Origin: a bacterium
GTDB lineage: Bacteria > AUK180
Direction: 5' to 3'
Length of the DNA: 41,095 nucleotides
Assembly: GCA_023144005.1 (NCBI GenBank)
Contig: JAGLGN010000033.1
Location: 1-41,095 of the forward strand
Made by a program: the position numbers and the translations under genes. Below are positions 15,476 to 33,889 of the stretch, piece by piece (the stretch's first letter is position 1; each line of letters opens with the position of its first letter). A model generated the notes under the pieces. That model searched no databases and was not told the DNA's origin. It saw only the letters and a list, made by a program, of their open reading frames with translations.

Positions 15476-15789
15476 TTACATTTACGGCATTATTGCAAAA
15501 TCAGCAGTTTATTATTTAACAAATGCTCGACTAACTGCAGCATTCCGGTAGATCAACAGGAAAGTGCACAAGTATTCACGTGTGAAGTGTGAAGTGCAAA
15601 GTGAGGAGAAGAAAGCAATATCCACACCCGTTAACGAAAAACAGTTATATCGTTTACCCCATTAATTCTCCTGTCACAATCATATCACGCCGCACCCCAA
15701 ACAAGATATGGGACGCGCCGTACTCCGCAGGAGTTCGACTGTCCCGGTGCAAAAGTTCCAAGCGAAGAGTTGGACAGGTAGCGGAGCCA
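15476..15789. repeat. Non-coding stretch with inverted module copies
   Basis: No gene is visible. 15581-15632 (gtgtgaagtgtgaagtgcaa...) is an inverted, imperfect copy of 32228-32292. 15681-15775 is an inverted copy of 3269-3359, sharing gccgcacccca and the small hairpin tactccgcaggagt. The stretch runs directly into the repeat array that begins at 15790. Confidence 0.7.
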
Positions 15790-16606
15790 GTGCTCTGATT
15801 CATAAAGACGGTAACAATGGCTGATGCTATTTTAATCCGTATTCAAGGAGCGAGGAACGCCGCATACCCACGGCGGTATGTAAGTAATTAGTGCTCTGAT
15901 CCATAAAGACGTTAACAATGACTGACGCTATTTTGCTCCGTATTCAAGACGCGAGGAGCGCTGCATACCCACAGCGGTATGTAAGCAACTATAGTGCTCT
16001 GATTCAAAATCCGATAACAATGGCTGATGCTATTTTGTTTCGTATTCAAGGAGCGAGGAACGCTGCATACCCACAGCGGTATGTAAGCAACGAGCAACGT
16101 AGAAGACGGCAAAAGAGTCCCAGCCCGAAGGGAATATCATCTTTGGTCAATTTCTTCCTCTCTCTTCGCTCACGGACCACAGAGGGTACGCCGCACTCAT
16201 TGTTCGTTGGAATTGACTCAAATCTAAAAATTCCATTGTCATCTGATTTTAAATCAGAGCACTTGAAACGCAGAAAACAGAAAAAGAGCTTCAGCCCGAA
16301 GGGAATATTACCTTTGGTCAATTTCTTCCTCTCTCTTCGCTTACGGACCACAAAGGGTACGCTGTACTCATTGTTCGTTGAAATGAACTCAAATCCAAAT
16401 ATTTCATTGTCAACGTATTTATAGATCAGAGCACCTGCAACGCAGAAGACAAGAAGAGAGCTTCAGCCCGAAGGGAATATCATCTTTGGTCAATTTCTTC
16501 CTCTCTCTTCGCTCACGGACCACAGAGGGTACGCTGCGCTCATTGTTCGTTGGAATTAACTCAAATCTAAACATTCCATTGTCATCGTATCTATGAATCA
16601 GAACAC
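15790..16606 (+). mobile_element. Array of MITE-like half-units (3 A + 3 B)
   Basis: Three A units (15790-15890, 15891-15993, 15994-16090; about 100 bp) are followed by three B units (16091-16262, 16263-16434, 16435-16606; 172 bp each). Each A begins gtgctctgat(t/c)cat or close to it. Each B ends in the inverse, (a)atcagarcac. A3+B1 together equal the complete 271-bp element at 33011-33281, in the opposite orientation. TA precedes A2 and A3 and follows B3, as expected for a TA-targeting transposon family. An open frame runs through A2 to B2 (15918-16424) and a similar one through B3. No transposase is encoded. Confidence 0.8.
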
Positions 16607-16952
16607 TAAACTCTTTGCCTCACTATTATCACACGAAAACATTCTCCACACATCTTTTAATGTCATTCTGAAGGAGCATAAGCGACCGAATAATCCATCT
16701 CTCTTGCACGTGTGACGTATGGTGTGTAGCGTTTCACGTGAAGAAAATCAAATACCAATTTCTCTTATTCTACTCTCAACTTGTGCCTTGTGCACTTGTT
16801 GCTTGTGCTCTGTTCGCTACCTTGCGAACTACTGTTTACATAATATACGCTATGTGGAATAAATATGTTCGGGCAATAAAAGGGATTCTTTGACATCAGC
16901 TCAAAGAAATTACATCATATTTTTTCAGTTTATAGTTAAAGCAGTATTGCTT
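16607..16952. other. Non-coding stretch after the array
   Basis: From the array's last terminus a 40-codon frame MNQNTKLFASLL... (16594 onward) stays open but resembles no protein. The stretch includes cacacgaaaacattc (shared inverted with about 3215), a gtcattctgaaggagc word of a kind common in bacterial intergenic repeats (from memory), and 16779-16812, shared directly with 3436-3469. No promoter or RNA gene was recognised. Confidence 0.6.
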
Positions 16953-21138: not shown

Positions 21139-21783
21139 TTGGACACCATAATTATCAAAGAGGGCGAAAGTGTTGTGCAGACAATTAAGCTCGAAAAAGA
21201 CCGCTTTCTGATCGGCTCCGATCAGGAATGTGATATATTTTTAGATAATCTTCTCGTTTCCGCCTCCCATGCAGAATTAGTGAAAACAGATAACGGCTGG
21301 TTCTTCAATGATCTGGGTTCCGATGACGGCTCATTTCTCGACGGTGTGAAGGTCGAAGAACATTACCTTGAAAATGCGGATGAGATACAGATAGGCAATT
21401 TTGTCCTTATCTATGACTGCGGCTTCCTCGCGGAAGACGAGACAGAGACCAAGATAGTTTTCGATTCTGAAAATCAGGACCCTGCTTCTTCAGTGAATGT
21501 GCCGAAGATCATTGGAAGACAGAACGACGGCAAAAGTGTAGAGTACCTCATACATAAATCAACGGTTGTTATAGGAAGAGCTCTGGGCGCCGATATCGTT
21601 ATTGAAGATATTACGATCTCGAGAATGCACGCCAAAATACTTTTTCAGAACGGGAAATACTATGTCAAAGACCTGGATTCGAGAAATGGCCTGTATGTGA
21701 ACAAAAAGCAGGTATCAGTATCAGAGGTCAAGAACGGAGATATTATTACCTTCGGAACCTACGCAGTGAAATTTGTCATTTAG
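21139..21783 (+). CDS. Double FHA-domain protein
   Basis: A 214-residue cytoplasmic protein made of two forkhead-associated domains, modules that bind phosphothreonine peptides. FHA2 (about 134-214) is canonical: IGRALGADIVI, ISRMHAKI (SRxH at 161-164) and DLDSRNGLYVN with N183. FHA1 (about 3-95) keeps the fold (LIGSDQECDIFLDN, HAEL) but has SASH instead of SRxH at 41-44 and DDGSF instead of NG. It has lost the usual phosphate-contact Arg and Asn and may not bind pThr. The start is a TTG with SD AAAGGAG 5 bases before it. No kinase gene is in the window. Followed at 25 bp by the radical SAM gene. Confidence 0.9.
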   Translation: MDTIIIKEGESVVQTIKLEKDRFLIGSDQECDIFLDNLLVSASHAELVKTDNGWFFNDLGSDDGSFLDGVKVEEHYLENADEIQIGNFVLIYDCGFLAEDETETKIVFDSENQDPASSVNVPKIIGRQNDGKSVEYLIHKSTVVIGRALGADIVIEDITISRMHAKILFQNGKYYVKDLDSRNGLYVNKKQVSVSEVKNGDIITFGTYAVKFVI

Positions 21784-21790
21784 TATTCCG

Positions 21791-21823
21791 ACATTGTTAC
21801 TGTCTTTATGAATCAGAGCACTA
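21791..21823 (-). repeat. Isolated A-end of the MITE-like element
   Basis: cattgttactgtctttatg followed by aatcagagcacta equals the reverse complement of the first roughly 32 bases of an A unit, with one substitution. It ends at TA. Only this terminus remains; no B unit is nearby. The terminus's outward ATG is the start codon of the next gene. Confidence 0.75.
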
Positions 21824-22689
21824 ATTCTCCTGCTTCCATCTCACAAAATTTAAATAAGATCGCAGAGAATTGTTCTCTCTGTCCCCTGAATTGCGGAGTT
21901 GACCGACTGAATGGAGAGCTGGGTGCGTGCGGAGTAAACTCACTCAGGATATCTTCGATCAATCTTCATCATGGCGAAGAGCCGCCGATCTCCTGCGGAA
22001 GCGGTTCAGGAACGGTGTTTTTCTCCGGCTGCAGTTTGAATTGTTTTTTCTGTCAGAACTATCCGATCTCGGCTCTGAAGTACGGCAAGGAGTTCTCGGA
22101 AGAAGAACTGATAGAAGAACTTCTTTTACTGCAGGATAGGAAAGCCGCGAATATCAATCTCGTCACACCTACGCATTTATCACACCTTATCATTCCCGTG
22201 ATCGCTAAGGCAAAGAAGAACGGGCTCTCCATACCTATTGCTTATAATACCTCCGGCTATGAATCCCCTGCTATTTTGAAACTGATCGATCCGATGATCG
22301 ACATCTATCTCTATGATATGAAGTATTCGAGTGATCAACTTGCAATTAAGTGCTCAAATGTGACAAATTATGTTGAAAACAATAGAGAGAGCTTTCAGAT
22401 ATTGATAAGGAGCAATAATGAGATCATTGAAGAAGGTAAAATGCTTAAAGGAGTTATCATCCGGCATCTCGTCCTTCCCGGGCAATTAAATAATACATTT
22501 GAAATTCTTGAGTATTTAAGTGCTTTCAAGGAAAAGCTGCACCTCTCGCTTATGTTTCAATATTTTCCCGCTTATAAGGCGGCAGACAACCCCGAATTCG
22601 GGCGCAAGATCAGCTATGATGAGTATAACAAAGTGTTAGAACAATTCGACCGGCTTGGATTTGAAAAGGGTTGGGTACAGGAATTGTAA
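21808..22689 (+). CDS. Radical SAM protein, PflX-like (COG1313)
   Basis: A 293-residue radical SAM enzyme related to pyruvate formate-lyase activases. An N-terminal cysteine set CSLCPLNCGVDRLNGELGACG (in parts, about 22-42) precedes the radical SAM CxxxCxxC motif CSLNCFFCQN (about 73-82), which holds the [4Fe-4S] cluster that cleaves SAM. Further signatures are NLVTPTHL, YNTSGYES, DIYLYDMKY and FQYFPAYKA. Substrate unknown for this family. The ATG lies inside the terminus of a repeat element, has no SD, and is the only ATG, GTG or TTG in frame between the FHA stop and the cysteine motif. The N-terminal MNQST is thus element-derived. Confidence 0.88.
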   Translation: MNQSTNSPASISQNLNKIAENCSLCPLNCGVDRLNGELGACGVNSLRISSINLHHGEEPPISCGSGSGTVFFSGCSLNCFFCQNYPISALKYGKEFSEEELIEELLLLQDRKAANINLVTPTHLSHLIIPVIAKAKKNGLSIPIAYNTSGYESPAILKLIDPMIDIYLYDMKYSSDQLAIKCSNVTNYVENNRESFQILIRSNNEIIEEGKMLKGVIIRHLVLPGQLNNTFEILEYLSAFKEKLHLSLMFQYFPAYKAADNPEFGRKISYDEYNKVLEQFDRLGFEKGWVQEL

Positions 22690-22704
22690 TGTTCTGATTC
22701 ATAT
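22690..22704 (+). repeat. Isolated terminus of the MITE-like element
   Basis: tgttctgattcatata directly follows the stop codon of the radical SAM gene and matches the element terminus g(t)gttctgattcata. It is inverted relative to the terminus at 21791-21823, so the gene is bracketed by two ends. No recognisable A or B interior follows. Confidence 0.6.
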
Positions 22705-22754
22705 ACGGAGGCTAGAGGTTCGAGTTTAGTGCAGAAAAAGGAATCACATCCGTC

Positions 22755-22775: not shown

Positions 22776-23190
22776 CCATCTTTTCATTATTAGCATATGT
22801 TTTTCTCACATCATTTTATGATGTTCAAAAAGAAATATAGTATATTATTGTTCCGGAAGGTGTTCTCTTTTCTTTTCGCTTTTTCCTTCGAACCGAAGCA
22901 TGCACTCATTAAAATGCATGAACTCGTTAGGAAGTATCCTCTCTCAAACAGCATGTCATTTTTCCTCGAACATTCGTTCCTGCCTCTAAAAGCTCTAACG
23001 ATCGCTCACTCCTTCCGGAACTCTCGGTTGGGCGCACGGCTGCGCCGTGCTCGAGGGTGGGGCGAAACATAGAAAAGAGAATGGAAGGAGAAGAAAGGCC
23101 AACTATTCAGTATCAGCAGCGCTTTTGCTAATTTATCCCCTTCTCTTCACCTTTCAACTTTTGAACTTGGAACCTTGAACTTTTGAACAT
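22774..23190 (+). repeat. Complete copy of the dispersed repeat seen at both window ends
   Basis: 22774-22803 matches the last 30 bases of the window (27 of 30), and 22996-23188 matches the first roughly 208 bases. This copy therefore shows the whole unit of about 415 bp. It contains a perfect 7-bp hairpin gcacggc-tgc-gccgtgc, where copy 1 has one changed base. It ends in ttgaacttggaaccttgaac words beside the stop of the secreted FN3-like gene. No good open frame and no transposase; non-coding repeat of unknown mobility. Confidence 0.8.
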
Positions 23191-23198
23191 TATGAATA

Positions 23199-32379: not shown

Positions 32380-33024
32380 TCAGTCATCTCCTATTATTAT
32401 ATCGGTAATTCCTAATGTGCTATTTAATGAAGTCAGAACAAAGCCCGACTCAGGTGAATGCTCTAACGTGGAAATCGAGCAATTATCCAGCCGGAGCTTC
32501 CAAAAATACGGCGCGTTCATTCCCAGTAGACCTGCAATTAAACACTTGAATACGCTGCGGTGTGAAACTATGGCAAAAACGCCGGGCGTCTGGTCATTCC
32601 CTATCAGATCCCTAAGTCCCGCTACAGCCCTTTCCCGTACATCACTGATCATCTCTCCCCCGGGTATAAGCAGGTCTTCGGGAGTACTGAGCCATTTGCG
32701 CCATAGATCGGGATATTGCTTTTGTACATCCGCCTTTGCCTTTGCTTGCCATTCCCCCACATCAATATTCTGAAAGCTGACACATTGCGTGACAGGTGCA
32801 CCGATCTCTGAAGATATTATGTCAGCGGTCTCGATCGATCTTTTCAAAGGTGAGGAAAATATTGCTTCAATACCGAGACCTTTCAGCTTTAATGCTGTTG
32901 TCAACGCCTGTTTACGCCCATTTTCATTTAATGGAATATCCGCTCTGCCTCTGAAGATCGACTCTTTATTATATACTGTTTCTCCATGCCTGATCAGATA
33001 CACTACCCTAGTGTTCTGATTCAT
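32380..33024 (-). CDS. Histidine phosphatase superfamily (phosphoglycerate mutase-like) protein
   Basis: A 214-residue phosphatase. The catalytic RHGETVYN (about 13-20) holds the phospho-accepting His; FRGRADIPLNENGRKQA, SSPLKRSIETADII, GEWQAKAKADV and the second His in VSHRSVFKCLI follow. The last motif has Arg where most members have Gly (SHG). Substrate is not predictable; cobalamin or sugar-phosphate phosphatases are options. Its ATG lies in the terminal inverted repeat of the MITE-like element and gives MNQNT before the native VVYLIRHGE. A GTG just before YLIRHG may be the ancestral start. It follows recX across the 271-bp element. Confidence 0.88.
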   Translation of the reverse strand: MNQNTRVVYLIRHGETVYNKESIFRGRADIPLNENGRKQALTTALKLKGLGIEAIFSSPLKRSIETADIISSEIGAPVTQCVSFQNIDVGEWQAKAKADVQKQYPDLWRKWLSTPEDLLIPGGEMISDVRERAVAGLRDLIGNDQTPGVFAIVSHRSVFKCLIAGLLGMNAPYFWKLRLDNCSISTLEHSPESGFVLTSLNSTLGITDIIIGDD

Positions 33025-33281
33025 AATTGCGACTCCAATGGAATGTTTAGATTTGAGTCAAATCCAACGAACAATGAGCGTGGCGTGCCCTTTATGGTCC
33101 GTAAGCGAAGAGAGAGGAAGAAATTTACCAAAGATAACATTCCCTTCGGGCTGAGGTTCTTTTCCTCCCTTCTGCGTTGCTCATTGCTTACATACCGCAG
33201 TGGGTGTGCTGCGCTCCTCGCGCCTTGAATACGGAACAAAATACCATCAGCCATTGCTGTCGCCTTTATAAAACAGATCAC
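33011..33281 (-). mobile_element. MITE-like element, complete copy
   Basis: A 271-bp A+B unit between recX and the phosphatase gene. Ends are gtgttctgattcataa (33011) and the inverse of gtgatctgttttataa (33281), matching at 13 of 16 positions. Both sides are flanked by TA (33009-33010, 33282-33283), as expected for a TA target duplication (IS630/Tc1-like behaviour, inference). Its minus-strand frame (GTG at 33281, 86 codons) begins on the recX stop and ends in a TGA overlapping the phosphatase ATG (ATGA). The frame contains MADGILFRIQGARSAA and SPKGMLSLVNFFLSLR, shared with the array at 15.8-16.6 kb. No transposase. Confidence 0.8.
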
Positions 33282-33889
33282 TATTCACTTCCGATCACCT
33301 CTCTTATCATATCGTATCTGAATCCCCGCCTTGTCAGGTGATTCAATGCCAGCTGCCTCTTTTTCATCGGATTGCTCTCTTTTCTTCTCGCCATATATTT
33401 ATCAAAGGCCTGCCGGCATACCTCGTGGAAATCCACCTTTTCAAATAAAACCTCTTCCGCTTTCAGCCCTTTTTCATACATTTTCTTTCTGATATATGAC
33501 GGTCCGTACCCCTTGCGGGTCAATGACCTGATCATCGCTTCAGCTGCCCTTTCATCGCAAAGATAATTATTCTCAGACAGTTTATCAATGACCTCATTGA
33601 TAACATCCTGAGGCACCTGCCTCTGCTTCAAACGCTTTCTTAATTCCGCCTCGGAACGCTCCGAATTTCCAAGCCAACGGAGGCAGTAGGAAAGCTCATA
33701 TTTATATAAAGATGTTAAAATCTCCTTATACATATCATCATCTATGTCCTTGATCCTTCGCAGCCTATATCTTGATACTATTCTTTTAGGAAGGTATAGC
33801 TTTTCACCACTTTCAAAAGCTATCAGGACTCGAGTAGTTCGACTTAAGCCTACCTCAATCGAGGAGTTGGTATTAATTATTCTTCTCAT
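33281..33889 (-). CDS. recX: RecX regulatory protein
   Basis: A 202-residue helical protein of the RecX family, which modulates RecA filaments. The typical three-helix repeats are seen: ALNYCLRWLGNSERSEAELRKRLKQR-like SYCLRWLGNSERSEAELRKR (about 67-86), VINEVIDKLSENNYLCDERAAEAMIR (in parts, about 96-121), KGYGPSYIRKKMYEKGL and the last helix with LNHLTRRGFRYDMIREVI. Its TAG stop is formed by the TA target site and the first base of the MITE-like element; the pre-insertion sequence would also have given TAG. The ATG overlaps the batB stop by 4 bp. recA is not in the window. Confidence 0.9.
   Translation of the reverse strand: MRRIINTNSSIEVGLSRTTRVLIAFESGEKLYLPKRIVSRYRLRRIKDIDDDMYKEILTSLYKYELSYCLRWLGNSERSEAELRKRLKQRQVPQDVINEVIDKLSENNYLCDERAAEAMIRSLTRKGYGPSYIRKKMYEKGLKAEEVLFEKVDFHEVCRQAFDKYMARRKESNPMKKRQLALNHLTRRGFRYDMIREVIGSE

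Follow-up and report, generated by a model that had tools for sequence, protein, structure and literature searches.

Within a 41,095-nt stretch of a 2.67-Mb genome (G000), referred to here as the window, a radical SAM gene begins inside the end of a dispersed repeat, which raises the question of how a conserved gene comes to have its first codon in a mobile element. The reading preferred here, to which we give a probability of roughly 84%, is that an insertion split an overlapping operon pair, made up of an FHA-domain gene and the radical SAM gene, and that an outward-reading element end replaced the native start of the latter. Comparisons were made with G001, the one genus-mate of G000 in the comparison set (both are metagenome assemblies), with G002-G004 of the same family and with G005-G006 of the same class.

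The radical SAM gene and the element end at its start

The radical SAM gene (21808..22689, + strand, 293 codons) encodes a protein of 293 aa starting MNQSTNSPASIS, which matched the Pfam profile Radical_SAM (PF04055) above its curated cut-off (41.5 bits vs 29.5, E=2e-10); NCBIfam activase models matched below cut-off only, and the COG1313/PflX-like identity is predicted. The protein is under purifying selection between G000 and G001 (dN 0.041, dS 0.240, dN/dS 0.17). Its upstream partner, the FHA-domain gene (21139..21783, + strand; Pfam FHA, E=1.2e-37), has a TTG start with the Shine-Dalgarno sequence AAAGGAG and a TAG stop. Read on from that stop, the radical SAM frame gives a stop followed by YSDIVTVFMNQSTNSPASISQNLNKIAENCSLC, and the ATG at 21808..21810 (+ strand) is the only in-frame ATG, GTG or TTG after the FHA stop, as the first-pass annotation of this DNA had claimed for the stretch up to the cysteine motif, and also the only one in codons 1-60 of the gene. 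Translation would be expected to start at this ATG, the sole possible standard start. It has no Shine-Dalgarno sequence, a feature present before many genes in G000; the FHA stop lies only 24 nt before it, so coupled translation is possible, and the ATG may rely on reinitiation after that stop. Scans for promoters and terminators around the element end did not reveal a convincing promoter reading outward from the tip.

The first-pass annotation had asked whether the family N-terminus begins after residue 20. In nearly all relatives homology to the query begins at residues 10-22, and residues 1 to ~9 are therefore non-family sequence. The leader before the CxxC motif is 21 residues long, inside the family range, which argues that the start was replaced and the gene not lengthened.

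The ATG lies in a solo element end of 37 nt (21784..21820, + strand), with the inner part left and the outer tip toward the radical SAM gene; the remainder of a ~275-bp element would have been deleted. Over 36 nt this end shows 92% complementarity with the outer end of an array copy (15789-15824), and its element part finishes ...CAGAGCA at 21820. An element end had previously been placed at 21791-21823; the end is real, but its limits are corrected here to 21784-21820, positions 21821-21824 (+ strand) being the putative right target copy, which is CTAA in G000 and ATAG in G001 and in translation completes T5 and opens N6. Junction comparison suggests that TTAG at 21780..21783 (+ strand), which holds the FHA stop codon, is the left copy of this 4-bp CTAG-like target, although among element copies a clean 4-bp CTAG duplication was seen at only one occupied/empty pair (C16:95468) and a general target-site duplication gave no significant signal over 36 end pairs.

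A second end of the same kind (22687..22705, - strand) borders the gene on its 3' side, with its tip TG abutting the TAA stop and its body to the right. It is absent in G001, where the protein has one extra residue and ends ELY, and its insertion may have made the present stop of the radical SAM gene.

The element family

The reference copy of the element is complete (33009..33284, + strand), has inverted terminal repeats of ~31 nt and folds strongly on itself (z=-3.9). An Rfam search of the window returned only a tRNA, so the folded element does not belong to a known RNA family. Matches to the reference copy numbered 56 in G000 and 55 in G001; there were none in G002-G004, G005-G006 or six further genomes. 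At ≤3 mismatches, each strand of the G000 genome holds 103 occurrences of the 18-mer TTTATGAATCAGAGCACT, the outer bases of the end (206 in total), whereas the reversed control gave 0. Several features of a prokaryotic MITE were found: the copies are ~275 bp long with no transposase gene, their ~31-nt ends are inverted, most pairs being arranged - then + and lying 253-256 bp apart, and they are dispersed, with empty orthologous sites in G001. Read outward, both tips give TTTATGAATCAG(A/G)RCA-CT, with variants that yield MEQYT, MKQHT and MDQNT; the tip proper ends ...CA and adjoins a CTAG-like flank of consensus CT(A)(G). TG...CA tips and a CTAG target recall IS481/IS3-type elements. A search for a partner transposase, covering rve (PF00665) only, found none in G000 and one in G001, which is without these ends.

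A tandem array of the element (15789..16608, - strand) carries extra copies of a 101-bp and a 172-bp end module, each repeated outward from a single full copy, and similar arrays were seen in G001 (C12, C15, C25 and C94). At 2770-2997 of the G001 locus L091, several other intergenic repeat bodies (CCTCTAGCC, ACTTGTGCC and CGTGAACGACTG types) finish in the same tip, so the family is one of different bodies with a common terminus. A tip-like sequence at 746-778 (18-mer, 2 mismatches) lies within the first codons of an HNOB-like gene (231-788) on the opposite strand. A different repeat is present at 1-216 and 22996-23195, ~23 kb apart, as two blocks (67 nt, 96%; 102 nt, 88%).

A histidine phosphatase gene (32380..33024, - strand; Pfam His_Phos_1) starts (MNQNTRVVYLIRHGET) in the reference copy, in the element end opposite to that represented by the solo end. 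The two had been labelled the B and A sides in the first-pass annotation, and consensus fits bear out that they differ: the solo end is closer to the end opposite the 172-bp module (14/24 vs 11/24, plus the 36-nt match), and the phosphatase end is the one adjoining that module (20/24 to its consensus). The accompanying proposal that both ends act alike also holds, in that each carries an outward ATG and both would serve as starts in the two genomes.

Relatives without the element and a candidate ancestral start

FHA orthologues (61-98%) occur in G001, G002 and G004, each directly upstream of the radical SAM gene. In G002 the two genes overlap as TAATG, and in G004 as TTGTCTGA, where the radical SAM start would be TTG. 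MNQST and the bases upstream of it, which according to the first-pass annotation should be missing from element-free orthologues if the element donated them, occur in neither of these family members; element-bearing G001 shares MNQS and does not share the 13 bases further inward. Between the FHA and radical SAM genes lie the 37 nt of element end in G000 and ~226 bp of other repeats in G001. TTTATGAATCAGAGCA is kept in both genomes, followed by CTAA or ATAG, and the DNA upstream is unrelated between the two; G001 thus retains the ATG and the next 10 bases of the tip with everything upstream changed. The start is less forced in G001, because four in-frame GTG/TTG codons lie upstream of its ATG, within the other repeat.

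When the insert and one 4-bp target copy are removed, the radical SAM frame is open back into the FHA gene in both G000 and G001. The joined flanks read NLSFSSPASISQNLNKIAENC and NLSFSHPASISQSLNKIAENC, where L is TTG, and give (L)SFS[S/H]PASISQ... in the two genomes, in the same register as the frame of G004. This TTG, located in the FHA 3' end (21773..21775, + strand) and in frame once the insert is removed, is the candidate ancestral start and probably the native one. ATT or CTG, which had been offered as ancestral starts, are disfavoured, the joined flanks being open to this TTG and the TTG of G004 lying one codon away. The insertion reading is based on this element-free overlap in relatives and on the frame restored by removal of the insert, together with the identity of the element, its restriction to the genus, the sole start, the tip kept in G001 and the purifying selection on the protein.

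The proposed history is as follows. In the ancestor of the genus, a MITE-like element of ~275 bp with TG...CA tips and inverted ends would have inserted at a CTAG-like site containing the FHA stop, where the FHA and radical SAM frames overlapped, and would have cut off the native radical SAM start. Each tip, read outward, supplies ATG AAT CAG (A/G)GC A-, and the CT of the target completes five sense codons, MNQ(S/N)T; as tip and target CT are all sense codons, one insertion phase in three puts the element ATG in frame with the gene beyond. At the radical SAM locus the phase would have been the one in frame, and the element ATG would have become the start codon. Later, most of the element would have been lost in G000 and the body replaced by other repeats in G001, possibly through later recombination between tips, the tip being retained after loss of the body because it now carried the start. 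The order of these later deletions, like the transposition mechanism, is a proposed one.

Recurrence, rival explanations and precedent

Beyond 207 independent ends from both genomes, open frames of ≥200 codons were distributed 19:5:6 with an excess in the ATG frame (p=7e-4), and those of ≥150 codons 21:8:8 (p=0.003). These 207 ends are all those collected in the two genomes minus orthologues and preselected loci; L226-L237 and L062 were excluded from the G001 set since they had been chosen for in-frame ends. Element tips appear to start at least 10 other genes in this genus. Genes beginning in the same end include those for RNase III, NamZ, the phosphatase, a flavodoxin-like protein, a DUF2007 protein, a methyltransferase and a lipoprotein. 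The first five have no alternative start for at least 30 codons, save a GTG at phosphatase codon 8; the next possible start is at codon 32 in NamZ, 43 in the EFR1/flavodoxin-like gene, 34 in RNase III and 41 in DUF2007, and the lipoprotein gene is likewise counted among those needing the tip start. The ends at C20:56642 and C35:10780 are in frame but were not accepted as starts that the gene needs, a native signal-peptide start lying ~10 codons downstream; with a native start a few codons downstream of some in-frame fusions, not every in-frame tip is needed.

The same element is present in G000 and G001 at the methyltransferase and flavodoxin-like genes, and the same tip with a different body at the radical SAM, phosphatase and lipoprotein genes and at C35:191809. 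The sister has an empty site with a native start at C16:95468 and C1:38244; at the former, AATACTAGATTC in G001 corresponds to AATACTAG-element-CAATACACTAGATTC in G000, and MDPNTRF becomes MEQYTRF. At C35:17366 an internal deletion in G001 joins both tips of the G000 element in frame, and in G001 the MKTGLDL of NamZ follows immediately on the inner portion of a tip. At L111 of G001 a tip runs straight into a P-loop kinase-like frame (MDQHTASGAGKSTLSR) and replaces its first strand, possibly a damaged gene.

At the phosphatase, residues 8-201 match His_Phos_1 model positions 1-192, so that the domain begins at residue 8. The tip (33009-33044) reads GGAGTCGCAATTATG in place of GTCATCGTATTTATG, with GGAG 9 nt before the ATG, and the changed stretch GGAGTCGCAATTATGAATCAGAACACTAG is identical in G001, where the upstream body is not. 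This GGAG is a gained and conserved Shine-Dalgarno sequence at the proper distance, and as such is the best sign that a tip is really used as a start.

The tip might instead lie passively upstream of the radical SAM gene and in frame with it, the real start being a non-standard codon (ATT, CTG or ATC) or reinitiation after the FHA stop, and MNQST being annotation noise. The ATG without a Shine-Dalgarno sequence and the nearness of the FHA stop (24 nt), which makes coupling possible, speak for this, but we consider it unlikely: a single standard start exists, G001 kept the ATG and the next 10 bases while all upstream of them changed, and at other genes no ATG but that of the tip precedes the domain, one of these genes having gained a Shine-Dalgarno sequence. 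Reinitiation, too, would most simply use the element ATG. Less credible still is that the native N-terminus merely resembles an element end, the elements preferring such sites and donating nothing. In the sister, several genes do carry the same tip beside a different element body, and two G001 starts, at C16:95468 (ATGGACCCGAATACT) and C35:17366 (CTGAATAAGAACACT), are tip-like; however, chance would not be expected to give an identity of 18 bases (0 control matches), the element-free relatives G002 and G004 are without the tip sequence, and C35:17366 carries the footprint of an internal deletion that joined two tips of the G000 element. The ends at 21784-21820 and 22687-22705 bracket the radical SAM gene exactly at its start and stop, as they would if the gene were cargo of a composite element, yet their tips face the gene, which places the bodies of the elements outside it; in G002 and G004, where there is no element, the gene still adjoins FHA, and G001 does not have the 3' end. 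This cargo reading, the least probable of all, was rejected on tip orientation and synteny, and replacement of the native start by an inserted element end is retained.

The principle of a terminus-donated start is already known from MITEAba12 and other MITE N-terminal fusions. MITEAba12 of Acinetobacter/Moraxellaceae, read outward from its terminus, is reported to give neighbouring genes their first four residues, MQQS, at three sites (PMC6382973). The present element is like it in being small and non-autonomous with a terminal inverted repeat that gives the neighbour's ATG and first residues; in the present case the ATG of the outward terminus shares the frame of the adjacent gene and is its sole standard start, from which the protein is predicted to be made. 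MITEAba12 differs in sequence and host, in its length of 113 bp, in having a known parent IS (ISAba12) and in its outward promoter (PMC6382973), whereas the system described here involves ~10 or more genes, conservation between species, element-free relatives, deletion remnants and one acquired ribosome-binding site. RU-2/YAPL and RU-1/ERIC repeats form in-frame gene fusions, some of them N-terminal, such as YPO1552; in these it is the repeat's internal ORF that joins the gene, which is mostly a short or hypothetical one (PMC2759123, PMC2229807), whereas the genes described here are conserved and take up only a 13-nt tip. Rickettsia palindromic elements are tolerated in frame inside conserved protein genes as whole elements, and start-codon donation is not described in the review that covers them (PMC10969869). 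To this the present case adds scale, genomes that show the before and after states, and an adaptation of the phosphatase end that has been conserved.

A broader idea, which we hold as no better than tentative, is that the tips are portable start modules domesticated genus-wide, in which selection would hold the ATG and four codons, and recombination among the numerous near-identical tips would swap the upstream DNA; if so, a dozen or more genes would have exchanged their 5' UTR, repeat body and perhaps promoter with the frame untouched. At the radical SAM locus, the before/after genomes present a non-coding mobile element that would have broken an overlapping operon pair and left both genes usable, the left target copy holding the FHA stop and the tip providing the radical SAM start. 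For annotation, N-termini of the forms MNQ(S/N)T, MEQYT and MKQHT in this genus should be treated as element-derived. The apparent recurrence in at least 10 conserved genes, the tips that outlast their bodies and the one ribosome-binding site gained make start donation a testable evolutionary route rather than a curiosity, one by which mobile DNA would recurrently edit genes and leave them alive, though not without precedent.
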